The notes beneath the pieces were generated by a model. The model searched no databases. It was not told the DNA's origin and worked only from the letters and a program-made list of their open reading frames with translations. Source: Plantactinospora mayteni (lineage in GTDB: Bacteria > Actinomycetota > Actinomycetes > Mycobacteriales > Micromonosporaceae). Taken from it: a stretch of 64,000 bases of DNA. This document shows, piece by piece, positions 3,518-64,000 of this stretch; the stretch's first letter is position 1; each line of letters starts with the position of its first letter. Where the stretch lies: the NCBI RefSeq assembly GCF_016862935.1, contig NZ_BONX01000053.1, positions 1 to 64,000 of the forward strand, read 5' to 3'. The position numbers and the translations under genes were made by a program.

Positions 3518-6500
3518 GTGTTCCTACCATCCCGACGAGCGCGTACGCCGATTCTGAGCGCGGTCGCCGTCGTACTCGCCGTCGCGGCCGTGTGCCTGCC
3601 GGCCGGCGGTGCCACGGCCGCGCCGCCGCCCCAGGAACCCGGTGTCACGCTGCGGGTATTCGACCTACAGGTGCCGCTGAACAACCTCTGCACCCTCAAG
3701 CCCGCGCAGACGCCCAACGTCGACAAGCTCATGCCGACGGTGAACTGGACGAGCGCGGCCGACTTCGGCTTCGAGAACTACTTCCTGGCCCACGTCCTCG
3801 GCAACATCAACATCGCCCAGGCCGGCAGCTACACCTTCCGGTTGCTCAGCGACGACGGGTCGCGACTCCTGATCGACGATGCCGTCGTGGTCGACCACGA
3901 CGGGCTGCACGGACCGGACCCGAAGGACGGCACGGTCGAACTCGGCACCGGCTACCACTCGCTGCGGATCGAGCACTTCGAGCGCGACGGCGGCCAGCAG
4001 TTGACATTGCAGTGGCGTACGCCCGGCTCGACGTCGTTCGTGACCGTGCCCAACTCGGTGCTGAGCACCGACGCCGGGGTCGTCCGGGTGACCGCGCCCG
4101 GCCGCAAGGAGTGCGAGGCCAGCGGTGACGCGCCCGGCGACGGGCTGCCGCTCACCGCCGTACATCCCGACTACACGCTGACGAACCTGCGGCCAAGCGG
4201 CTTCGAGCCGCAGGTCACCGGCTTCGACTGGCTGCCGGACGGGCGCCTCGCGGTGCTCACCTGGGGCGGTTCGCTGACCACCGTCGGCGAGGTCTGGCTG
4301 CTGGGCAACGTCACCGGCAACACCAGCCCGGCCCAGGTCACCCGGACCCGGATCGCCACCGGCCTCCAGGAGCCGATGGGCATCAAGTTCGTCGACGGCA
4401 AGCTGTACGTGTCGGAGAAGCACCGGCTGACGGAGTTGAACGACACCAACGGTGACGGGGTGACCGACAACTACCGGACCGTGGCCACCTGGCCGTTCGG
4501 GCAGAACTTCCACGAGTTCGGCTTCGGGCTGCTCTACGCCGACGGGTTCTTCTACCTGAACCTCTCGGTCTCGATTAACTACGGCGGTGCCACCACCAAT
4601 CCGCAGCCGGCGACGAACCGGGGCACCACCATCAAGGTGAACCGGACGACCGGCGCGGTGTCGTACATCGCGGGCGGGCTGCGTACCCCGCACGGCATCG
4701 GCTGGGGGCCGGAGAACGAACTCTTCGTCACCGACAACCAGGGCGGCTACCAGCCGGCGTCCAAGCTGCTGCACATCAAGCAGGACCGGTTCTTCAACCA
4801 CTACCTCAACCCGGCCGGGCCGTTCGACAACAACCCGGTGACCCAGCCGGTCATCTGGTTCCCGCAGAACGAGATCGGCAACTCGCCGAGCACCCCGGTG
4901 ATGATGACCCAGGGCGTCTTCGCCGGGCAGATGGCGATCGGTGACGTGACGTACGGCGGCCTCCAGCGGGCGTACCTGGAGAAGGTCAACGGGGAATACC
5001 AGGGCGCGCTGTTCCGGATGACGCAGGGGCTCGAGGCCGGCGTCTCCGAGGTCAGCGTCGGCCCGGACGGTGCCCTCTACACCGGTGGCCTGCACGGCGG
5101 CGGGAACTGGGGTCAGGAGGGCAAGCTCAGCTACGGCCTACAGAAGATCGCCACCAACGGCAGTACCAACTTCGACATGCTGGCGATGCGGGCCCGTCCC
5201 AACGGGTTCGAGATCGAGTACACCAAGCCGCTCTCGGCGGCGACCGCGACCGCGCTGGCCTCGAAATACCGGGTCAAGCAGTGGCGGTACGTCCCGACCG
5301 CCGCCTACGGCGGGCCGAAGGTGGACGAGGAGACGCTCTCGGTCTCCTCGGCGACGCTGTCGGCGGACGGCAAGAAGGTCACCCTGGTCGTCAACGGGCT
5401 CAAGGCCGGCCGGGTGGTACACGTCCGCTCGCCCCGGCCGTTCAGCGCCAGCGACGGCCAGGCACTGTGGAGCACCGAGGTCTGGTACACCCTCAACGCC
5501 ATCCCCGGCCAGGTGCCGCCGGTCAACCTCGCCCTGGGCAGGCCGGCCACGGCCGACAGCTCCTGCTCGGCGACCGAGGGCCCGGCCAAGGCCGTCAACG
5601 GGACCACCACCTCCGGGAACCTCGACAAATGGTGCTCGGCGGGCACCAACCGGTGGTTGCAGGTCGACCTGGGCTCGACCCAGAGTGTGAACCGGGTCGT
5701 CGTGCAGCACGCGGGTGCCGGTGGTGAGGCCGCCGCCTGGAACACCCGCGACTTCGCCGTCCAGGTCAGCACCAACGGCACCGCCTGGACCACCGTCGCG
5801 AACGTCACCGCGAACACCGCCAGCACCACCACGCACACCTTCGCGGCGACCCAGGCCCGGTACGTCCGGCTCGCCATCAGCACGCCGAGCAGCGACGGCA
5901 ACAACGCGGCCCGGGTCTACGAGTTCGAGGTCTACGGCGGTGCCGCGCCGGCAGAGGCCAACCTCGCCCTGGGGCGGCCGGCGACGGCGGACAGTTCCTG
6001 CGCCGGCGCCGAAGGGCCGGCGCAGGCGGTCAACGGCAGCGTGACCGGCGGCAACAGCGACAAGTGGTGCTCGCTCGGCGCGACCAAGTGGTTGCAGGTG
6101 GACCTCGGCAGCACGCTCAGCGTGCACCGGTTCGTGGTCAGGCACGCGGGTGCCGGTGGTGAGAACGCCGCCTGGAACACCCGCGACTTCGCCATCCAGG
6201 TCAGTACCAACGGCACCGCCTGGAGCACGGTCGCGACCGTCACCGGCAACACGGCGAACGTCACCACGCACGACATCCCGGCCACCCAGGTCAGGTACGC
6301 GCGACTGAACGTGACCGCGCCGACCAGTACCACCGACAACGCGGCCCGGATCTACGAGTTCGAGGCGTACGGCCCCGGTGGCAGCCCCGGCCGGATCACG
6401 CTCTTCGACGGCACCAACATGAACAACTTCCAGCAGCCCGACGGGGCCAACCCGACCTGGCCGCTGGGCAACGGTGGGGTGGAGGTGTTCGGCGGCGACA

Positions 6501-53674: not shown

Positions 53675-54134
53675 GCATGGGCCATCATCGAAATCTATGG
53701 GTAGACCGATGTGGATCCCGAGCCGTGTCGATGCCCGGCGGAACGCCCCTGGTAGCGCTCCCAACCCTGGTGCGAAGAGGTGTGGCGGTGTGCGGTCGGT
53801 ACCGGGTGCCGGGTCGGATCCGCGCGGTCGCAAAGCGCCCTTCTAGCGCATTTGCCATGGAACAACGGTAGATAGTTTCTGGAATCTTGTCCGACGTGTT
53901 GCTTCGACATCCTTCGACTCAGCGAGGCGCGGGTCGCCGACACCACGGTCTGACGCTGGCGTACGGACAACCGGCCCGGCGGCCAACCGGACCAGAACCG
54001 TTAGAGGTCGTAGCCCTGCTCCGCGACGCCGGCGCAGGAAACCGTGGGAATCCCGCGCGTGCCGAGACGACCGCACCTTCGAGGTCGACCAGCCGGCCAG
54101 CCAGCAGGACAGGCGCGACGGGCGGCAACCGGCG
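53675..54134. other. Intergenic, no gene seen
   Basis: About 460 bases between the importer promoter and the MFS stop. A minus-strand frame from 54128 starts like a GNAT acetyltransferase (P-V-L-L-A-G-R-L-V-D-L-E) but loses similarity at once. It could be a stub; I do not call it. Confidence 0.35.
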
Positions 54135-55337
54135 CTATTCGATCGGCACTGTCCGGCGGTCGGGCGTAGCGGCCAGCAGGAGCGTCGACACGGCCGCGAA
54201 AGCGGCTGCACCGACGAAGACCAGACCTGGTGATGCGTACGTCAGCGACCAGCCGAACGCCAGGCCAGCGGTAACCGGCACCACGGTCTCCGCGACGGCA
54301 CCGATCCCGGTCAGCGTGCCCTGCACGATCCCTTGCTCGTCGGCCCGGACATGACGGGAGATCCATGACTGCGCGGCCGGACCGCCGACCGAGCCGAGTA
54401 CGCCGACCGCCTGTAGGACGTAGAGCATCCACGGAACGGACACGAACGCCGTACCCGCCAGCGCCGCGACGCCGAGCAGGCTGCCGGCCACCGCGGCACG
54501 CCTGTCGCCGAGCCGGCGGACGATCGGGCCGACGGCCCGCGCCTGGAAGACCGCGCCGACCAGCGCGCCCGCCGCCAGCACGACGCCGATCTGCACGGTG
54601 CTCCAGGCGAACTGGTACGTGAGGAAGAACGTCCAGGTCGACTGGTGGGTCATCCGGGCGACGTCGGCGCAGAGGCGGGCGTACGCGAGCCGCCCGAGCA
54701 CCGGGCGGCGCAGGACGACGGTGACGGCGCCGACCGGGTTCGCCGTCCGCAGGGTCAGCGGGGTGGTCCGGTCGCCGGGCCGCGACTCCGGCAGCACGAA
54801 CCAGCCGTACGCGACGTTGGCGAAGGAGAGCGTGGCCGCGGCGAAGAACGGCAGGCGTACGTCGACGGCACCGAGCAGGCCGCCGATGGTCGGACCGGCG
54901 ACGAAGCCGAGCCCGAACGCGGAGCCGATCAACCCGTACGCGCGAGCCCGCGACTCGGCCTCCGTGACGTCCGCGATGTACGCGTTGACCACGGTCTTCG
55001 TGCCCGCGCACGCGCCGGCGAGAGCGTGGAACACCAGGAGTGTCCAGGGGCTGGGTGAGATCGCGTGGGCCAGCCAGTCGAGGCCGAGGCAGGCCAGCGA
55101 CGCGAGCAGGACGGGCCGCCGGCCGTACCGGTCGGAGAGCCGCCCGAGCAGCGGCGAGACGGCGAACTGGAGCAGGCCGTAGATCGAGCCGAGCAGTCCG
55201 GACCAGAAGACCGCGGCGGCGGCGTCCCTGGTGACGGCCGACATCAGGGCCGGCACGATCGGCACGATCAGGCCGAGCCCGAGCATGTCGAGGAAGACGG
55301 TGCCGAAGAGGAAGGAGAGGGCGGGCGCCCGGCGCAT
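54135..55337 (-). CDS. MFS transporter, TetA-like
   Basis: A 400-residue transporter with 12 predicted helices. The loop 2-3 motif G-R-L-S-D-R-Y-G-R-R-P is perfect, and motif C in helix 5 reads G-L-G-F-V-A-G-P-T-I-G-G-L, the drug:H+ antiporter signature. It begins with the TetA-like FGTVFLDMLGLGLIVPIVP. Tetracycline or a related drug is a plausible substrate, but this group includes many unassigned exporters. The ATG at 55337 has AGGAG at 5 nt; an upstream start to 55382 is unsupported. It is not flanked by a TetR gene. Confidence 0.9.
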   Translation of the reverse strand: MRRAPALSFLFGTVFLDMLGLGLIVPIVPALMSAVTRDAAAAVFWSGLLGSIYGLLQFAVSPLLGRLSDRYGRRPVLLASLACLGLDWLAHAISPSPWTLLVFHALAGACAGTKTVVNAYIADVTEAESRARAYGLIGSAFGLGFVAGPTIGGLLGAVDVRLPFFAAATLSFANVAYGWFVLPESRPGDRTTPLTLRTANPVGAVTVVLRRPVLGRLAYARLCADVARMTHQSTWTFFLTYQFAWSTVQIGVVLAAGALVGAVFQARAVGPIVRRLGDRRAAVAGSLLGVAALAGTAFVSVPWMLYVLQAVGVLGSVGGPAAQSWISRHVRADEQGIVQGTLTGIGAVAETVVPVTAGLAFGWSLTYASPGLVFVGAAAFAAVSTLLLAATPDRRTVPIE

Positions 55338-55531
55338 TGCGGCTCCTGAGTGGTGAGAGGGCAGGGCCCCCTCACGACTCACGGTCCGCCGAAAGTACGG
55401 AGGATCAGACTATCTCGGCTGTCAAATTGTTTTTCCCCTCCTATCCACCGCGCCGGCATCGGTCGCCGATGACGGTTGCCGAACGGGGAACATCTCGCGA
55501 GTCGGTGCGCCCCCGCTGCCCGGGCCTGGTG

Positions 55532-56770
55532 TCAGTCGATCGCCTGGTAGAGCGTGGTCCAGAAGTCGTGGATGAGCCGGGCCGAACTCGGGACCGACAT
55601 CCCGACCTGGGTGAGCAGGAGCCCGGTGAGCTGACTGTCCGGATCGGCGTACGTCGAGGTGCCGCTTCCGCCGTCCCAGCCGAACTGGCCGATGGACGCG
55701 TAGTCGCCACGGTGGGTGCGTACCGCCATCCCGAAGCCCCACCCGCCGTGCTGCCCCTGGCCGAACGACACGTGGACGTTGTCGCGGGCCATGGCGGTCC
55801 GGGCGGCCTGTTGCTCGGGCGTGAGGCTGTTGGTGGTCATCAGTTCGACGGCGGGCCGGGACAGCACCCGTTCGGTCCCGTGCATCCCGCCATTCAGCAG
55901 CATCCGGAAGTAGGCGTGGTAGTCGTCGACGGTGGAGACGAGCCCACCGCCGCCGCCCTGGAACGCCGGAGGTCGGCTCCACCGTCCACCCGCGGCCTCG
56001 TCCCACACGGTGAACTCTCCGGTCCGCGGGTCGGGGGCGTAGAGGGTCGGCAGCCGGCCGATCTTGTCGGCGGGCACGTGGAAACCGGTGTCCGCCATCC
56101 CCAGCGGCTCGAAGATGCGTTCGCGCAGGAACTCCTCGAACGACTGGCCCGTGACCCTGGCGACGAGTACGCCGAGCAGATCGTTGCTGATGTGGTATTG
56201 CCAGCGCTCTCCGGGTTGGTGCATCAGTGGCAGCGTGCCGAGGCGGCGCATCCACTCGTCCGGCTCGGGCATCGGCTCCGGCAGATCGGGCGTGAGCCCC
56301 TGCTCGAAGATCGCGCCCATGATCGGGGTACCCAGCGACGTCATGTCCATCCCGAGCCCGAACGTGGAGGTCAGCAGGTCCCGTACGGTGATCGGCCGCC
56401 GCGCCGGCACGGTGTCGTCGAGCGGCCCGTCGATCCGCTTCAGCACCCGCCGGTCGGCGAGTTCGGGCAGCCACTGCTCCACCGGGTCGTCCAGCCGCAG
56501 CCGGCACTCGTCGAGCAGGATCATCGCCGCCGCGACCGCGACCGGCTTGGACGTCGAGGCCATCCGGAAGATGGTGTCCCGCCGCATCGGCGCACCACCG
56601 TTGTGGCGCATCGTCCCGATTGCCTCGACGTGCGTCTCGACACCCCGGCTGACCAGGGCGACAAGCCCGGGAATCCGCCCGGACTCGACGTGCCGCGCCA
56701 GCACCTCACGCAGTCTGCGCAGCCCTGCTTCGGAGAAGCCGCTGTGCTGGTCCCTGAGGGTGATGGACAT
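55532..56770 (-). CDS. Serine hydrolase, class C beta-lactamase/EstB family
   Basis: A 412-residue cytoplasmic enzyme. The S-x-x-K nucleophile motif is S-T-S-K in F-R-M-A-S-T-S-K-P (about residue 72), the Tyr motif is in Q-Y-H-I-S-N-D-L, and the third motif is H-G-G-W-G-F-G. Spacing and length match esterases of the EstB/class C beta-lactamase fold, which act on esters or D-amino-acid peptides; true cephalosporinase activity is unlikely without a signal peptide. The ATG is preceded by AAAGGAGCACACAACC. A terminator hairpin lies between it and the SRPBCC gene upstream. Confidence 0.88.
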   Translation of the reverse strand: MSITLRDQHSGFSEAGLRRLREVLARHVESGRIPGLVALVSRGVETHVEAIGTMRHNGGAPMRRDTIFRMASTSKPVAVAAAMILLDECRLRLDDPVEQWLPELADRRVLKRIDGPLDDTVPARRPITVRDLLTSTFGLGMDMTSLGTPIMGAIFEQGLTPDLPEPMPEPDEWMRRLGTLPLMHQPGERWQYHISNDLLGVLVARVTGQSFEEFLRERIFEPLGMADTGFHVPADKIGRLPTLYAPDPRTGEFTVWDEAAGGRWSRPPAFQGGGGGLVSTVDDYHAYFRMLLNGGMHGTERVLSRPAVELMTTNSLTPEQQAARTAMARDNVHVSFGQGQHGGWGFGMAVRTHRGDYASIGQFGWDGGSGTSTYADPDSQLTGLLLTQVGMSVPSSARLIHDFWTTLYQAID

Positions 56771-56850
56771 GGTTGTGTGCTCCTTTGATCGAACGGAGGG
56801 ATGGTGGAAGGCGATCCGGTTCGTGCCGGTTACCTGGATCGCTGAGGTCA

Positions 56851-56883
56851 GGGCGCCCGAGGCGATCTCCCGCTCGGGCGCCC
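56851..56883. terminator. Hairpin after SRPBCC gene
   Basis: GGGCGCCCGAG (56851-56861) and CTCGGGCGCCC (56873-56883) form an 11-bp perfect stem with an 11-nt loop, and flanking GTCA/TGAC bases extend it. It ends the SRPBCC gene. Confidence 0.75.
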
Positions 56884-56907
56884 CGACCCTGACGGGAGAG
56901 CGGACTG

Positions 56908-57390
56908 TCAGCAGCCGAGCCGGTCGGCAATCACACCCAGCACTTGCCGCAGGTCACGGGACATGCGGGCGCGCAGGCCGAGCTCGGCGATCCCGGCCAC
57001 GAACCCCGGATGGTCGGGGAGGACCCGGTGGACACGATGGGTCACCCGGGTGCCGGCGGGGCAGGCAGTGGCGGCGTGCACCCCGGCGTACCAGCTCTGC
57101 ACCGCCACCCTGGACCGGGCCCGGTCCACCTGGATCTCCACCGGCTCCACCGGCCCGGCGAGCTCGGCGCGGTAGACGCCGGCGCCGGACCCGGCCACCA
57201 CGGTCATCGCCCCCTGTCGTGCCGCCGAAGCCCTGGCCAGCACCAGCAGGTTGTCGTCGCCAACCCGCCCCTCGGCGACGGTCAGCAGGACCGCGGCGAC
57301 CGCGGCGACCGGCGCGGCGAGCGTCCCGTGTACCTCCCACCGGGCGGGCAGCGCGTCCAGCTCGGCGAGCAGCGAAGGCGTCGTGTGCAT
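56908..57390 (-). CDS. SRPBCC (START-like) family protein
   Basis: A 160-residue single-domain protein. The strand order fits the helix-grip fold: W-E-V-H-G-T-L-A-A-P near the start, E-I-Q-V-D-R-A-R-S-R-V-A-V-Q in the middle, G-T-R-V-T-H-R-V-H-R-V, then a long C-terminal helix. Such proteins bind hydrophobic ligands; some are polyketide cyclases. No catalytic residues can be named. The ATG at 57390 has no strong RBS. It lies 169 nt downstream of the STAND regulator on the same strand and could be in its transcript. The family call is moderate because similarity is low. Confidence 0.55.
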   Translation of the reverse strand: MHTTPSLLAELDALPARWEVHGTLAAPVAAVAAVLLTVAEGRVGDDNLLVLARASAARQGAMTVVAGSGAGVYRAELAGPVEPVEIQVDRARSRVAVQSWYAGVHAATACPAGTRVTHRVHRVLPDHPGFVAGIAELGLRARMSRDLRQVLGVIADRLGC

Positions 57391-57559
57391 GGCGAAGAGC
57401 CTGGACGCGGCGGCCTGTCCCGGACAACGCGTGCCGCGCCTTCCGGGACGCGGACCATCCCAGAGATACCCGGCTGACCTGCACCGTTACGCCAACGGAC
57501 GGCTGTCGCGCGGGTGTCCCGGGACGGGACGGGACACCCGCGCCACCGCTGCGACGGGC

Positions 57560-59842
57560 TCAGGACATCCGGGCCAGACCCGCCCGCGCCGCGGACACCA
57601 CGTGGTCGAGGCCGTGCGCGGTGGCGAGTTCCAGCACCGCCTGGAAGTGCCGTGCCGCGGCGTCCCGATCGCCCGTGGCCAGACATGCCTCCGCGTACGG
57701 GAGGAGGCTGCGCGCCAGCCGGTGCGGCTCGCCGGCCCGGTCGAGAATCCGTACGGCCTCGGCGTGCCTGTCCGTTGCCTCCTCGGCGCGACCGAGGTGG
57801 CGCAGGGCGACGGCGGTGTCCGTGAGGCTGGCCGCCTCGAAGATCGGATGGCGTGTCGCCCGGTTGAGCGCGACGGCCTGCTCGGCGAAATCGAGGGCGG
57901 TCTGGGCGTCACCCAGGCCGAGTGCCGCCCGGCCGAGCACTTCCAGGCACATCCGCTCCGTCTGCCGGTCCAGCCCCCGCGCGGTCTCGGTCACCTCCGC
58001 GACGACCTCGCGGGCCTCGTCGTACTTCCCCGACTGCACCAGAGCCTGGCCGAGACCGGTGCACACCCGCACGCGGACGGCGGCCTCACCGGGGGGCAGC
58101 ACGGCGGTCGCCTGGCGCAGAAGTTCGACGGCACCTTCGGCGTCGTCGACGTACATTCGGATCTCGGCCAGCTGTAGCAGGGTGATGGCCTCGCTGACCA
58201 CGTCGCCCTCCGCGGCCATCAGCACCCGGGCCGCCTCGAGTTCCGGCACCGCCTCCGCCAGCCGGCCGACGCGCATCAGCGCGGCGCCCAGCAGGTACCG
58301 GTGCGAGGCGAGCACGCGGCGCTCGCCGAGCCTCTCCGCGGCGGGCATGCTGACCTCGAGCCCGTGGCGCAGCTGCGCCATGCCACCGCGTCGCGCGTGG
58401 GCGATCAGGGCGAGCTGGCCGAGCCCGACCGCCGGCGCGTCGATACGCAGCTCCACGGCGAGCGAGAACGTCGCGGTGAGGTTGGCCCACTCGGTGTCCA
58501 TCCAGTCGACGGCCGCGTCGTAGCTGGAGAGGTCCGGCAGCGCCGGAGGCGGCTGCGACACGGCGACCGGCAGCGGGATGACGATCTCGACCAGCTCCTT
58601 CACGGCCAGCATGCCGCTCAGGTAGTAGTCACCGAGCCGGGCGATCGCCGGCACGGGGTCGGCCGCGGCGTCGTCGGCACGGGCGGCCTGCCGCAGCAGG
58701 TCGTGCATCCGGTACCGACCCGCCGCCGGCTCCTGGACCAGGTGGACGTCGACCAGGTCCTCCAGCAGGGAACGGGCGTTGGCCAGCGGGATCCCGGCCA
58801 GCGCGGCGGCGCCGTACGCGTCGATGTCCTCGCCCGGCACCAGCCCCAGCAGCCCGAACATCCGCCGCTGGGCGGGGTCGAGCTGCCGCAGCGACATCTC
58901 GAACACGTCCGACACCGCCAGCTCGCCCTCGCGCAGCCGTTCCACCAGGGTGTCGAGCGTCCACGCGGGCCGGTGCCGCAGCCGCGCGGCGGCCACCCGG
59001 ATGGCCAGCGGCAGGTTTCCGCATCGGCGGAGTACCTCGCCGACGTCACCGGGCCGAGCCCCGCCCGCGGATTCGACGAACAGCTCCGCCGCCTCCTCGG
59101 ACGGCAGGACGTCCAGCGAGATCGGCTGGACGCCGTCCAGCTCCACCATCCGGCGGCGACTGGTGATCACGACGAAGCTCTGGCCGGCGCCGGGCAGCAG
59201 ATCGCGTACGTGACCGGCGTCAGCGGCGTTGTCCAGCAGTACGATCGCCCGCCGCGTCGCCAGCTCCGACCGCCACAGCGCGGCCCGCTCGGCGACCCCG
59301 TCGGGAATCCTGCCGGGTGGCAACCCGAGCGCGGTCAGCAGTACCCGCAGCGCCTCGGCGGGCTCGACCCGCTCCCGGCCCGGAGTGAACCCGTGCAGGT
59401 CCAGGTAGAGCTGGCAGCCGGGGAAGTCGGCGGTCAGCAGGTGCGCGGCGTGCACGGCCAACGCGGACTTACCCACCCCGCCCATGCCGTCGATCGCCAC
59501 CACCGACCTGTCCCGGGCGGCGCCGAGGAGGGCGTCCAACTCCGCCCGGCGCCCGGTGAAGGCGGTGATGTCGTGTGGCAGGTCATTGCGTACCGGCGCA
59601 GCGGCAGCCCGGCCCGGCTGGGGCCCGTCCTTGGCCCGCTCCCACACCCCACGCAGTGGCCTTGGGTCCCGACCGGCCGCCTTGCAGAGCGCCACCACCG
59701 TCGGCCAGGGTGGAACGGCCTGGCCGGAGAAGTAGCGCGACAGCGAGGAACTGCTGACGTGGATGTCGCGGGCGAGCTCGCGCAGGCTGCGTCCGGTCAG
59801 GTCACGCAGCTGCCGTAGCCACCCTGCCAACTCCTCGGGCAC
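57560..59842 (-). CDS. XRE-HTH / NB-ARC / TPR STAND regulator (AfsR-like)
   Basis: A 760-residue signal-transduction ATPase. Order: XRE HTH (about 1-60; L-R-E-L-A-R-D-I-H-V-S-S-S-S-L-S-R-Y-F), NB-ARC ATPase (about 90-380) with P-loop G-M-G-G-V-G-K-S at 119-126 and Walker B around I-V-L-L-D-N-A-A-D, winged helix with M-H-D-L-L-R, then TPR repeats (about 440-760). It lacks the SARP activation domain, so it is an AfsR-like regulator with an XRE head, common in actinomycetes near secondary-metabolite or stress genes. The start is a GTG at 59842 without a clear RBS. Targets and ligand are unknown. Confidence 0.9.
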   Translation of the reverse strand: MPEELAGWLRQLRDLTGRSLRELARDIHVSSSSLSRYFSGQAVPPWPTVVALCKAAGRDPRPLRGVWERAKDGPQPGRAAAAPVRNDLPHDITAFTGRRAELDALLGAARDRSVVAIDGMGGVGKSALAVHAAHLLTADFPGCQLYLDLHGFTPGRERVEPAEALRVLLTALGLPPGRIPDGVAERAALWRSELATRRAIVLLDNAADAGHVRDLLPGAGQSFVVITSRRRMVELDGVQPISLDVLPSEEAAELFVESAGGARPGDVGEVLRRCGNLPLAIRVAAARLRHRPAWTLDTLVERLREGELAVSDVFEMSLRQLDPAQRRMFGLLGLVPGEDIDAYGAAALAGIPLANARSLLEDLVDVHLVQEPAAGRYRMHDLLRQAARADDAAADPVPAIARLGDYYLSGMLAVKELVEIVIPLPVAVSQPPPALPDLSSYDAAVDWMDTEWANLTATFSLAVELRIDAPAVGLGQLALIAHARRGGMAQLRHGLEVSMPAAERLGERRVLASHRYLLGAALMRVGRLAEAVPELEAARVLMAAEGDVVSEAITLLQLAEIRMYVDDAEGAVELLRQATAVLPPGEAAVRVRVCTGLGQALVQSGKYDEAREVVAEVTETARGLDRQTERMCLEVLGRAALGLGDAQTALDFAEQAVALNRATRHPIFEAASLTDTAVALRHLGRAEEATDRHAEAVRILDRAGEPHRLARSLLPYAEACLATGDRDAAARHFQAVLELATAHGLDHVVSAARAGLARMS

Positions 59843-60307
59843 TCTTGTCAGCCTTTTTCCAACTTCACGCGCTGATCATAGAGCGGGTGCGGTGGGGCCG
59901 AGCGCGCGTCCGGAAATGGTCCGCGACGACGAGCGCCGTGACATCGCTATTTTGGTCGGGATGGACGGAGTGATCGTCGAGGCCGGCGCAGCGCCCGATA
60001 TTCCTGGCGACCGATCCGTTGGGACGGCACGTCGCCACCCTCGCGGATGGCGTGTCGACCGTGCACGACCGGCCCGCGACCTGGCCGAAGTCGGGTCGCG
60101 ATCCATGCCGCCGCCGCGTCACCTCACGGTCCATCCCAGCGGAACGTCGATCGCGGTGCTGTCCGAGCACGGAGAACTCGAGGTGTGCCGCCCCGGCGCG
60201 GCTGCCTATGCTGGTCCGGGTTCGGGTGTTGCTCCGAGTCCACTGTGGCCAGCGAATTCGGCGGTCCTGGGCAGGCATCGAACCTCACCATCCTGGAAGG
60301 GTGTGCC
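59843..60307. other. Intergenic, no firm gene
   Basis: About 465 bases, less GC-rich near 59845-59885 and 59950-59965. A plus-strand frame (about 59920-60200) ends with a stretch resembling a beta-propeller strand (H-P-S-G-T-S-I-A-V-L-S-E-H-G) but has no RBS or recognised family. It should hold promoters for the flanking divergent genes. Confidence 0.4.
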
Positions 60308-61123
60308 ATGACCGATCACGCCGGGTCGCCGGACGCCGAGCGAGCGCCGAAGATCGACACCACTGTGCCGCATCAGGCCAGGGTGTGGAACTACCTGTTG
60401 GGCGGCAAGGACAACCACCTGGTGGACGAGCGGGCCGGCAAGGCGGTGCTGGCTGCCGCTCCGGGGCTGGTCGCGATGGCCCGCGCGTCCCGGGTCTTCC
60501 TGACCCGCGCGGTGCGCTACCAGGTCGAGCAGGCAGGCATCCGCCAGTTCCTGGACATCGGCACCGGGCTGCCGACCGCGAACAACACCCACGAGACCGC
60601 CCAGGCGCTCGCCCCGGAGTCCCGCATCGTGTACGTGGATTTCGACCCGCTGGTGCTGGTGCACGCCCGTGCCCTGTTGACCAGCGACCCGCTGGGTGCG
60701 ACCGACTACATCGACGCCGACCTGCGCGACACCGAGAAGATCCTGCACCTGTCCCAGCGGACGCTGGACTTCACACGGCCGGTCGGGATCATCCTGCTCG
60801 GGATCCTGGGCGCGATCGAGTCCTACGCCGAGGCCCGAGTGATCGTGCGTACGCTGCTGGACGCGGTACCCGCCGGCAGCTACCTACTGGTCGGCGACGG
60901 CACGAACACCAGCGAGGCGATGGTGACGGCGGCCCGGGTCCGCAACGAGTCGGTCAAGCCTCCCTACATCGTGCGCAGCCCCGAGCAGATCGCGGGGTTC
61001 CTCGACGGGCTGGACCTCGTCGAGCCCGGCGTGGTCTCCTTCCCGCACTGGCGACCCGAGCCGGGTTCCGCCCAGCACCCTGCCCACGTCGACGGCTACG
61101 GTGGCATCGCCTACAAGCGCTGA
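60308..61123 (+). CDS. DUF574 SAM-dependent methyltransferase
   Basis: A 271-residue member of the actinobacterial DUF574 (Methyltransf_19) family. It opens with T-V-P-H-Q-A-R-V-W-N-Y-L-L-G-G-K-D-N, the family hallmark, and has the SAM-binding motif L-D-I-G-T-G-L-P-T and acidic V-Y-V-D-F-D-P. The C-terminus G-Y-G-G-I-A-Y-K is also typical. Substrate unknown; the family is found in many copies per genome, often next to XRE/DUF397 genes. The ATG at 60308 has GGAAGGG at 6 nt. The reading frame stays open upstream to 60047 but without similarity. Confidence 0.9.
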   Translation: MTDHAGSPDAERAPKIDTTVPHQARVWNYLLGGKDNHLVDERAGKAVLAAAPGLVAMARASRVFLTRAVRYQVEQAGIRQFLDIGTGLPTANNTHETAQALAPESRIVYVDFDPLVLVHARALLTSDPLGATDYIDADLRDTEKILHLSQRTLDFTRPVGIILLGILGAIESYAEARVIVRTLLDAVPAGSYLLVGDGTNTSEAMVTAARVRNESVKPPYIVRSPEQIAGFLDGLDLVEPGVVSFPHWRPEPGSAQHPAHVDGYGGIAYKR

Positions 61124-61263
61124 CGTACGACGGAGCGGGAGGACTCGCTGCCCGGCCTTGTCGCCCGGCGAGCCGAGCTGCGTACCGGGGCCGAGCTTCC
61201 GGGTCGACTGACGCGTTGCCGGCCCGGTGGCGACGCGTGGGCCGTCACCGGAGTGGCGTGCGG

Positions 61264-61800
61264 CTACTTCGTCGCCGGCCGGTACCGCACGCTCACCTCG
61301 GCCGTCGGATCGTCCGCGCCGACGTGGTGGAGGTAGATCGGGCTGCCGCCGAGGTGCTCGTACAGCCGGATGCCCTGGCCCAGCAGCACCGGCGCGATGT
61401 GCAGGTCGATCTCGTCGAGCAGTCCCCGCTGGAGGAGTTGGCGGCCGATGTCCGGCGACAGCACCTCCACGTTCTTGCCGCCGGCCGCCGCCAGCGCGAT
61501 CCGCACCGCCTCGGCCAGGTCGCAGTCGAGGAACGTGACGCGGTCGGCTGGCTCGGCGTCCTCCGGGTGGTGGGTCATCACGAAGACCGGCCCGGTGACC
61601 TCCTGCACCAGGTCTTCGGCCTGGTCGAACGACCCGAGCATGCGGTAGCAGTGCACCCGCAGTTCGCGCCGGTGCTGTTCGACCCGTTGGGCGAAGGCGT
61701 CGTCGTCGGTCACCGGGCGACCGTACCCGTTGCCGGCGCGTGCACGCAGCGCCGCGGCGTGCTCGTCAGGTTGAAAAGGGTTCGTTGTTGCCACGGCCAC
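61264..61800 (-). CDS. Chimera: ECF sigma region 2 fused to RibD/DHFR-like C-terminal half
   Basis: A 178-residue ORF made of two unrelated pieces. Residues about 30-66 are the start of an ECF (SigG-like) sigma factor: [27 protein letters not shown] and A-E-D-L-V-Q-E. At that point region 2 should continue (T-x-L-R-A-W); instead residues 68-178 are the C-terminal half of a RibD/dihydrofolate-reductase-like protein: P-V-F-V-M-T-H-H-P, then [20 protein letters not shown]. The junction (near 61603) is in frame without a stop. The reductase lacks its N-terminal NADPH/substrate half and the sigma factor lacks its DNA-binding parts. The start could be the GTG at 61800 or 61713. Either a deletion fusion or an assembly error. 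Confidence 0.75.
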
Positions 61801-61855
61801 CGTCCGTGATTCTTCGTCCCGCCGGGAAACCGAAGGATCATCGGACGGTGGCCGT
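61793..61855. repeat. 14-bp perfect inverted repeat at the chimera start
   Basis: ACGGCCACCGTCCG (61793-61806) and its exact complement at 61842-61855 are 35 nt apart and bracket the upstream region of the chimera, overlapping its GTG. A terminator for the convergent strand, a regulator site or an mRNA structure hiding the start are all possible. Confidence 0.6.
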
Positions 61856-61931
61856 TACGCGTCACGCCGACATCCGCAAGGGACCAGGCCGGCAACCCAG
61901 GCCGGCAACGACGAAAGGTCGAAGAACAGAT

Positions 61932-62570
61932 CTAGATGTAGGCGAGAACGTAGTTGTAGCTTGCCGATCCGCCGTGCCGGCCACTGGCCGGGCAGGCGCT
62001 GGCAGACTGTTGGGGTCCGTAGTAAAGCCCCTGACACCTACTGCACCAGCGCCAGTTGGGTTGTTCCAGGGTGCCAATTGTCGTGTCGTGGAACAGGTGG
62101 TAGTTGTAGCTGGCGGTGAAGTTGTGACCTGAGCCGGCGGGGCACCGGCCCGACGTACCGTTGCCGGCAAAGGCCAGGCCCTGGCACTTGCGGCACCAAC
62201 GCCAGTTCGATTGTATGTCTGGTGCGGAGACCGAAGGCTCCCCGAAGAGGAGTTGGTAGTTGCTGCTGGACGAGCCGTTGTGTCCGCCCCCGGATGGGCA
62301 AACTCCGTTCGTGCCGTTGAGTATGTAGAACAGCCCGCGGCACTTGCCGCACCACTGCCATCCAGCCTGAACTGCGTAATCCGCCGTGCTTGCCAGGCTC
62401 GCGAGCCTGGCGGATGCGGTCGCTGGCCGGCTCGCCGACTCGGTCGATGCGGATGCCGAAGATGCGATGGTGAGGTTGGCGGCGGCCACTCCGATCCCGG
62501 CCAACAGGCTGTTCCTCAACAGTACTCGCCGGCTGGTGTTGCCGGTTGTCGGCGGTACGCTGTCTGCCAT
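61932..62570 (-). CDS. Tat-exported protein with three Cys-rich W-x-W-C repeats
   Basis: A 212-residue exported protein. The Tat signal (T-S-R-R-V-L-L-R-N, hydrophobic core, ending A-S-A-S) is followed by three repeats of about 45 residues. Each repeat reads (N/G)-W-x-W-C-x2-C-x-G-L-x-(F/Y), then G-x-C-P-x-(G/S)-G-x-H, then S-x-N-Y-x-L. The CxxC plus a later Cys and His per repeat suggest a small zinc ribbon or disulphide module. I know such repeats in uncharacterised actinobacterial and myxobacterial secreted proteins but no Pfam name. The ATG at 62570 follows GAGAG; codons upstream to 62690 are unsupported. Function unknown; Tat export fits cofactor loading before export. Confidence 0.75.
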   Translation of the reverse strand: MADSVPPTTGNTSRRVLLRNSLLAGIGVAAANLTIASSASASTESASRPATASARLASLASTADYAVQAGWQWCGKCRGLFYILNGTNGVCPSGGGHNGSSSSNYQLLFGEPSVSAPDIQSNWRWCRKCQGLAFAGNGTSGRCPAGSGHNFTASYNYHLFHDTTIGTLEQPNWRWCSRCQGLYYGPQQSASACPASGRHGGSASYNYVLAYI

Positions 62571-62807
62571 GATCACTCTCTTTCGTTTCAGGCAATAGTT
62601 GTCGAAGGTGGCTGGTGGAGAGTCCGTGTTCCACGAACCGAGAATGAGGCCGCAGATCGTGCTGGTGCGGCAGAAACCGAATCTCTCCATCGCTATGTCA
62701 TCCTTGCCTCCAAGCCTCGGTTTCCTCGCACACGTGGTCCAGGGTGAGTAAAAGAGGTGGGTTCGTCGGGCAGCCGGACCCGCAAGGCGGTTGTGGCGGT
62801 GAGCGGT

Positions 62808-63728
62808 TCAGGCGTCGCGGGGTGGCCGGCTCGCGCGTATCAAGGCGCGCAGGTCGCCGACCCGGTCGAAGTGCCGTAGCTTGTCGGGGTTGACGATGGA
62901 GTGGATTGCCTGGACATGGGTGTCGGTGATGTCCAGTCCGATCACGGCGATCAGTCGGTCCTCCGCGTCGAACGCGATTCCGCCGGGCTGGCCGTTGACC
63001 TCGGCGATCTGGACGCGGACGTCAACGCGTGCCGATGCGGACATCCCGGCTGCCAGGGTCCGTGCCACGCGGTCCCGGCCGATGACCGGCCTCGGTGGCG
63101 CCGGCACGTTGCCGCCGCTGTCGGTGTGCAGCGCCACATCCTGGGCCAGCAGCGCCTTCAGTGCGGGCAGGTCGCCTTGCGCGGCGGCGGCGAAGAAGCG
63201 CCGAGCCAGCTCTTCCCGCTGGCCCCGAGACGCGTAGTAGCGCGGTCGCCGCTTGCGAAGATGCTCGCGAGCCCGCGCGACCAGGTGCCGAGCGCTGTCC
63301 ACATCGGTGTCGACGAACTCGGCGACCTCCGCGTACGGATAATCGAACACCTCCCGCAACAGGAACGCGGCCCGCTGCTGCGGCGACAGGGTCTCCAGCA
63401 GCACCAGGAACGCCAGCGACAGCGAGTCGGCGGTCTCGGTGCGCTCGGCCGGGGTCGGATCGGTGACCAGTGGCTCCGGCAGCCACTCGCCGACGTACCG
63501 CTCCCGCCGCACGCGCGCCGAGCGAAGATGATCGATGGCCAGCCGGGTGACCAGCGTGGCGATGTACGCCTGCGGCGAGGCGATGTGCTCGTCCCGCTGG
63601 AGGGTCTGGTGCATCCGCAGGAACGCTTCCTGCACCACGTCCTCGGCTTCGCTGACGCTGCCGAGCATCTGGTAGCCGATGGCGAACGCCCGCGGTCGCA
63701 GCTCGCCGTACAGATCCGAGATGGACAT
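62808..63728 (-). CDS. ECF41 sigma factor (SigJ-like) with C-terminal SnoaL-like domain
   Basis: A 306-residue ECF sigma factor of group 41. Sigma region 2 (about 5-70; A-F-A-I-G-Y-Q-M-L-G-S, E-A-E-D-V-V-Q-E) and region 4 (about 110-160; L-L-R-E-V-F-D-Y-P-Y-A-E-V-A) are joined by a linker with the group hallmark W-L-P-E-P-L at 82-87. The C-terminal SnoaL/NTF2-like extension (about 170-306) replaces the anti-sigma factor and contains N-P-D-K-L near 280. The D-G-G-G-(R/K) motif is D-S-G-G-N here, a variation in a key control motif. These sigma factors usually sit next to a COE gene (carboxymuconolactone decarboxylase, oxidoreductase or epimerase); here only a stub of an epimerase remains upstream. 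Confidence 0.92.
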   Translation of the reverse strand: MSISDLYGELRPRAFAIGYQMLGSVSEAEDVVQEAFLRMHQTLQRDEHIASPQAYIATLVTRLAIDHLRSARVRRERYVGEWLPEPLVTDPTPAERTETADSLSLAFLVLLETLSPQQRAAFLLREVFDYPYAEVAEFVDTDVDSARHLVARAREHLRKRRPRYYASRGQREELARRFFAAAAQGDLPALKALLAQDVALHTDSGGNVPAPPRPVIGRDRVARTLAAGMSASARVDVRVQIAEVNGQPGGIAFDAEDRLIAVIGLDITDTHVQAIHSIVNPDKLRHFDRVGDLRALIRASRPPRDA

Positions 63729-63734
63729 ATCCGC

Positions 63735-63824
63735 CTAGCTCAACCCCTCGATGACCCCGTACTCGGAGTGGCGAACGAGATGGTTGCCGACCGGGCCGGA
63801 CGCTCCGGCAAGGAAGATCTTCAC
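63735..63824 (-). pseudogene. 29-codon stub of an NAD-dependent epimerase (ECF41 partner)
   Basis: A GTG at 63824, with GGAG at 7-nt spacing, starts the Rossmann motif V-K-I-F-L-A-G-A-S-G-P-V-G, exactly like the N-terminus of atypical SDR/epimerase proteins that accompany ECF41 genes. After about 17 residues the frame ends quickly (E-G-L-S, stop at 63735). An internal deletion joining the first and last codons would explain it. The stop is 7 nt before the ECF41 start, so the stub still sits in the partner's position. Confidence 0.65.
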
Positions 63825-64000
63825 GACGTCTCCGCTCGTTGTGCTTCCACCAACAACAGACGAGGCGCTCCGGTGCCCCATGACCGGCCGTGACCCAGCT
63901 CACAGGAGGGCTGCCGTCGGCGTTCGTTTGTACGGTCTGGCTCGGGCCGGTGTCGACGACGCCGTACCGGGCATCGCCGTCCGGTCACGGACCACCGTGC

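Follow-up and report, generated by a model that had tools for sequence, protein, structure and literature searches.

Fusion pseudogenes arise by deletion between co-directional neighbours, and the locus described here can be compared both with these and with two kinds of intact protein. The first of the latter comprises the ECF sigma factors with a SnoaL_2 domain that are recognized by the NCBIfam models PRK08241 and TIGR02960, which we take to denote a SigG-like kind of sigma factor; the intact representative from Dactylosporangium fulvum scores 411 bits against PRK08241 (cut-off 240), and its best-scoring solved chain is PDB 7qh5. The second comprises the RibD_C/DHFR-like proteins (PF01872), among which the reductase of D. 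fulvum has the solved relatives 2xw7, 3kgy and 7xh2. A comparison case for the SigG-like sigma factors is SigG1 of Streptomyces tsukubaensis, a member of group ECF56 (PMC7730460), and we would place the sigma gene discussed below near this group. Searches of the literature combining sigma-factor terms with reductase or context terms found no paper.

The window, a stretch of 64,000 nucleotides from the genome of Plantactinospora mayteni, contains a minus-strand open reading frame (ORF) at 61264-61800 that yields 178 residues on translation when begun at an upstream GTG. The original prediction described it as an in-frame chimera of an ECF sigma factor start and a RibD/DHFR-like C-terminus, and this description is borne out by Pfam matches to both. 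On the 178-residue translation, RibD_C is matched at residues 62-149 (profile positions 87-175 of 197; E 4.5e-9) with 36.8 bits, above the cut-off of 24.1, and Sigma70_r2 at residues 40-68 (profile positions 2-30 of 71; E 6e-5) with 23.2 bits, slightly under the cut-off of 24.0, with region 2 being incomplete. Pfam recovered neither region 4 nor SnoaL_2 in the window ORF, whereas both are found in the D. fulvum sigma factor. PRK08241 and TIGR02960, both sigma-70 factor models, are among the best NCBIfam matches for the first part of the ORF; the top match, PRK08241 (E 1.1e-14), reaches 54.3 bits, far under its 240-bit cut-off, because the ORF holds just the N-terminal start of that family. The predicted length of 178 residues is that of the ORF and not of the likely product: by comparison with D. 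fulvum, whose intact sigma gene begins at the corresponding GTG (position 3683 of the locus L034), the GTG at 61713 is probably the true start, which leaves a product of 149 residues, and the first 29 of the 178 residues are upstream sequence translated in frame. The fused ORF thus delimited consists of the 39 N-terminal residues of an ECF sigma factor, residue 39 coming from a shared codon, and the C-terminal 110 residues of a RibD_C/DHFR-like protein. The features of the locus are as follows:

61217..61768, minus strand: whole stretch resembling the D. fulvum locus (blastn of window positions 54001-64000 against 10,330 bases of L034, which returned two segments only)
61264..61713, minus strand: fused ORF in its likely true extent, from the GTG at 61713 (equivalent to the GTG at L034:3683) to the stop, 149 residues
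61598..61713, minus strand: sigma-derived part, the 38 N-terminal codons of an ECF sigma factor of the SigG-like kind and two bases of the next codon, 39, within a 171-base, 94.7% match to L034:3628-3798; Sigma70_r2 profile positions 2-30 of 71
61264..61597, minus strand: reductase-derived part, the last base of codon 77, 110 C-terminal residues and the stop codon, within a 382-column, 97.1% match to L034:4999-5379; matches RibD_C
61597..61598, minus strand: deletion breakpoint, at which some 1,201 bases of the D. fulvum sequence (L034:3799-4999) are lacking, placed by base-by-base comparison with both D. fulvum flanks
61793..61855, no strand: inverted repeat with perfect 14-base arms and a 35-base spacer, adjoining the fusion on its upstream side

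In a search for relatives that used one genome per species and kept the best 80 of 115 relatives, the closest match was the locus L034 of D. fulvum, which belongs to another genus of the same family as the window; the D. fulvum genome in our family-wide set (G107) is identical to L034 over 3,336 bases. This locus carries an intact sigma gene (L034:3683-4681) coding for 332 residues with regions 2, 4 and SnoaL_2 and, about 88 bases downstream on the same strand, a RibD_C-like reductase gene of 187 residues (from the ATG at 4770 to a stop codon that ends at 5333). Identity between the window and L034 is 94.7% over L034:3628-3798 and 97.1% over L034:4999-5379, and since both halves of the ORF align at 95-97% at the nucleotide level to an intact pair of neighbouring genes in a single other genome, their resemblance to real genes is evidently not due to chance. 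The two matches are collinear and meet at a single window position, 61598|61597: read base by base, the window tracks the sigma gene through 61598 and, starting at 61597, the reductase gene, so that the gap runs from sigma codon 39 to reductase codon 77. A switch had been predicted at about 61603, and it does occur, five bases away from there, in codon 39. The sequence shared by the two ends of the deletion amounts to one base, 61598, which fits both sides. The sigma and reductase frames of D. fulvum are offset by a single base, and 1,201 is one more than a multiple of three, which explains why the fusion is in frame; such retention of the frame is a one-in-three chance and is therefore no sign of function.

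Removing some 1,201 bases in one step from an intact tandem gives the window sequence, and this supports the reading that we hold with high confidence, namely that the fused ORF is the scar of one illegitimate deletion between neighbouring genes. The ancestor would have been a two-gene tandem, with a SigG-like ECF sigma factor (sigma2, sigma4 and SnoaL_2) followed about 88 bases downstream by a RibD_C/DHFR-like reductase. A loss of about 1.2 kb from sigma codon 39 to reductase codon 77, perhaps through end joining, would then have brought together ends with one base in common, and the frames would have matched by luck, leaving a single short reading frame made from two gene stumps. The supposition of the original prediction that two neighbouring genes were involved agrees with the intact neighbours of D. 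fulvum and of a second genome (G003), which are ordered and oriented as expected. The locus shares with fusion pseudogenes its ordered neighbours, its one breakpoint and its restriction to one genome, and differs from them in no unusual respect, the frame merely happening to be kept; the feature is an ordinary in-frame deletion fusion of co-directional neighbours.

An error of assembly, by which an intact tandem in the genome would have been reduced when the assembler skipped about 1.2 kb, is the least improbable of the other explanations and is still unlikely. The assembly is a draft of 123 contigs, but the join lies 61.6 kb inside a contig of 151,769 bases, far from its ends, and the ends share one base only, so that there is no repeat to make an assembler collapse them. 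Moreover, the missing 1,201 bases were not recovered from another contig, and only pieces of 66-81% identity were found in the assembly, partly at other sigma-factor genes, among the 40 of 785 first-look candidates that were scored. As a separate matter, a second copy of either half in the same genome was considered and rejected, the best other proteins matching the sigma start at 68% and the reductase end at 31-35%.

The tandem itself recurs among the relatives. All 113 relative loci have a reductase match by tblastn, and in 21 of them (16 distinct copies by reductase sequence) a same-strand sigma gene lies close upstream, this count referring to tandem order, with open frames checked in D. 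fulvum and G003 only. Separate sigG-like and reductase genes had been expected side by side in relatives, and so they are in these 21 loci; in the other 92 tblastn finds no matching sigma gene ahead of the reductase, and the tandem is thus not universal. G003, which is of the same genus as the window, has the tandem in the same order and orientation with both frames open. Reductases from three of the 21 loci (L009, L010 and L011, same genus) are 42-46% identical to that of D. fulvum and represent a more distant pair. The reductase match starts no later than residue 14 in 111 of the 113 loci, which therefore possess the first half; the exceptions are L080, where it begins at residue 39, and L011, where the first half is there in another frame. 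At L011:1298-1770, in the same-genus genome G005, the reductase lies behind an apparently full-length sigma gene and carries an apparent frameshift near residue 80, which seems, from the sequence, to be a second sign that such reductases can be lost.

The fused form has a far narrower distribution. A 33-mer spanning the junction, allowing up to 3 mismatches, was found in one of 354 genomes of the family, that of the window itself. A protein search of 300 family genomes gave a match in 271, and among the matches listed (13 candidates scored for most genomes) residues 1-149 were spanned only in the window's genome. Among the genomes searched the deletion is, on these sequence comparisons, private to that of the window.

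Relative to the SigG-like sigma factors, the window frame is the same over its first 38 residues, breaks off in the first half of region 2 and is without region 4 and SnoaL_2; most of region 2 has been lost with them, and 38 full codons of 332 are left. Relative to the RibD_C/DHFR-like proteins, it keeps residues 78-187, these 110 C-terminal residues having 98% identity with their D. fulvum counterpart, and the first 77 are gone. An alignment of 22 rows has 67 invariant reductase columns, of which 29 fall in the lost part, including the invariant MSLDG (the nearly invariant TTGAVLGGR lies in the same stretch), and 38 in the kept part; the window retains all 38. Given both folds, we would expect neither half to perform its normal function. 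In structure predictions made from 22-row alignments, mean pLDDT was low both for the fusion (57.6) and for an intact reductase control (54.1). On the window branch there are 3 nonsynonymous and 4 synonymous codon changes, where 74% nonsynonymous would be expected without constraint (P 0.076, not significant); the D. fulvum branch, whose genes are intact, has 2 and 1. These changes are few (7 and 3), G029 alone serves as outgroup, and the change at codon 130, ambiguous with this outgroup, was given to the window since many other relatives have R. Many of the changes on the window branch may be older than the deletion.

The original prediction had also allowed for a new small protein able to bind core RNA polymerase and a nucleotide, and we regard it as very improbable that the 149 residues are made and work, with the region 2 stump binding core RNA polymerase or acting as a decoy and the reductase half binding a nucleotide. 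The frame is open, the retained invariant residues of the reductase are all conserved, and there is the weak, non-significant surplus of synonymous changes given above. Against this, Sigma70_r2 is matched at only 29 of its 71 positions, the reductase is without its first 77 residues, with MSLDG and TTGAVLGGR, and none of the 353 other family genomes has the junction; with a region 2 that ends within its first half and a junction found in one genome, the proposal has no support. Slighter still is the chance that the cell expresses these 149 residues and has retained them as a small regulator, whose sigma stump would compete for core polymerase and whose reductase half would dimerise or sense a nucleotide. 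The fused product most likely does nothing, and the ORF would be a dead remnant, a pseudogene of both genes. That it represents a standing two-domain family across many species, with a sigma region 2 start and a reductase end, is next to negligible and is rejected within this bacterial family, given that, of 354 family genomes, only the window's own has the junction pattern and that 111 of the 113 relative loci have the first half of the reductase; such a fusion as a standing architecture, which the original prediction had named as counting against a scar, was seen in no relative searched.

Resemblance to the D. fulvum locus ends 55 bases ahead of the sigma start and 47 bases beyond the reductase stop, and the window locus sits among different neighbours than its D. 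fulvum counterpart. The rpoB pieces of the two genomes are 89.2% and 90.5% identical, and the recA pieces, counting only those inside the gene, 82.6% and 86.0%. The G003 copy is 84.8% identical to the window in the reductase part and 87% identical along 102 bases of sigma sequence, though the rpoB genes of these two genomes agree at 95.4%. Because D. fulvum is closer to the window's genome at this locus than in rpoB or recA, comparison with these two marker genes suggests that the tandem or its remnant was gained by horizontal transfer; it could have arrived from a lineage near D. fulvum either before or after the deletion. The deletion is younger than the split of the window and D. fulvum copies. 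The recA gene (L149, G000:C22:41689-43566) presents a peculiarity of its own, in that the RecA of the window's genome has an in-frame insert of about 360 residues, beginning CMSYSTRVTLADG and ending VMVHN, which by its motifs is presumably intein-like; the RecA flanks in G003, G107 and G029 align without such a gap.

Several further elements were noted around the locus. Lookalikes of the inverted repeat at 61793-61855, with 76-79% identity, were found in 3 of the 7 genus genomes, namely a further one in the window's own (contig C69), two in G003 and one in G004. A scan of 61000-62000 gave a terminator-like site on the plus strand at 61792-61808, and the promoter scan of the same interval gave no sigma-70 type site. 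At 60047-61123 lies a gene for an S-adenosyl methyltransferase (Pfam Methyltransf_19), with many related copies across the genus genomes, one of them 90% identical in G006, and 61932-62690 codes for a protein with three W-x-W-C-x-x-C-x-G-L repeats that matches no family above the cut-off. A search of the genus for an empty site showed none: the methyltransferase gene next to the locus has a 90-91% match in G006, past which no sequence matches.

The fusion has little significance beyond the window's genome. It offers a clean example of an in-frame deletion fusion and cautions that two-domain proteins predicted automatically can be scars. That a SigG-like sigma gene and a RibD_C/DHFR-like reductase gene recur side by side (21 of 113 loci) hints that the two may be functionally linked, for instance through a sigma factor that drives the reductase gene.
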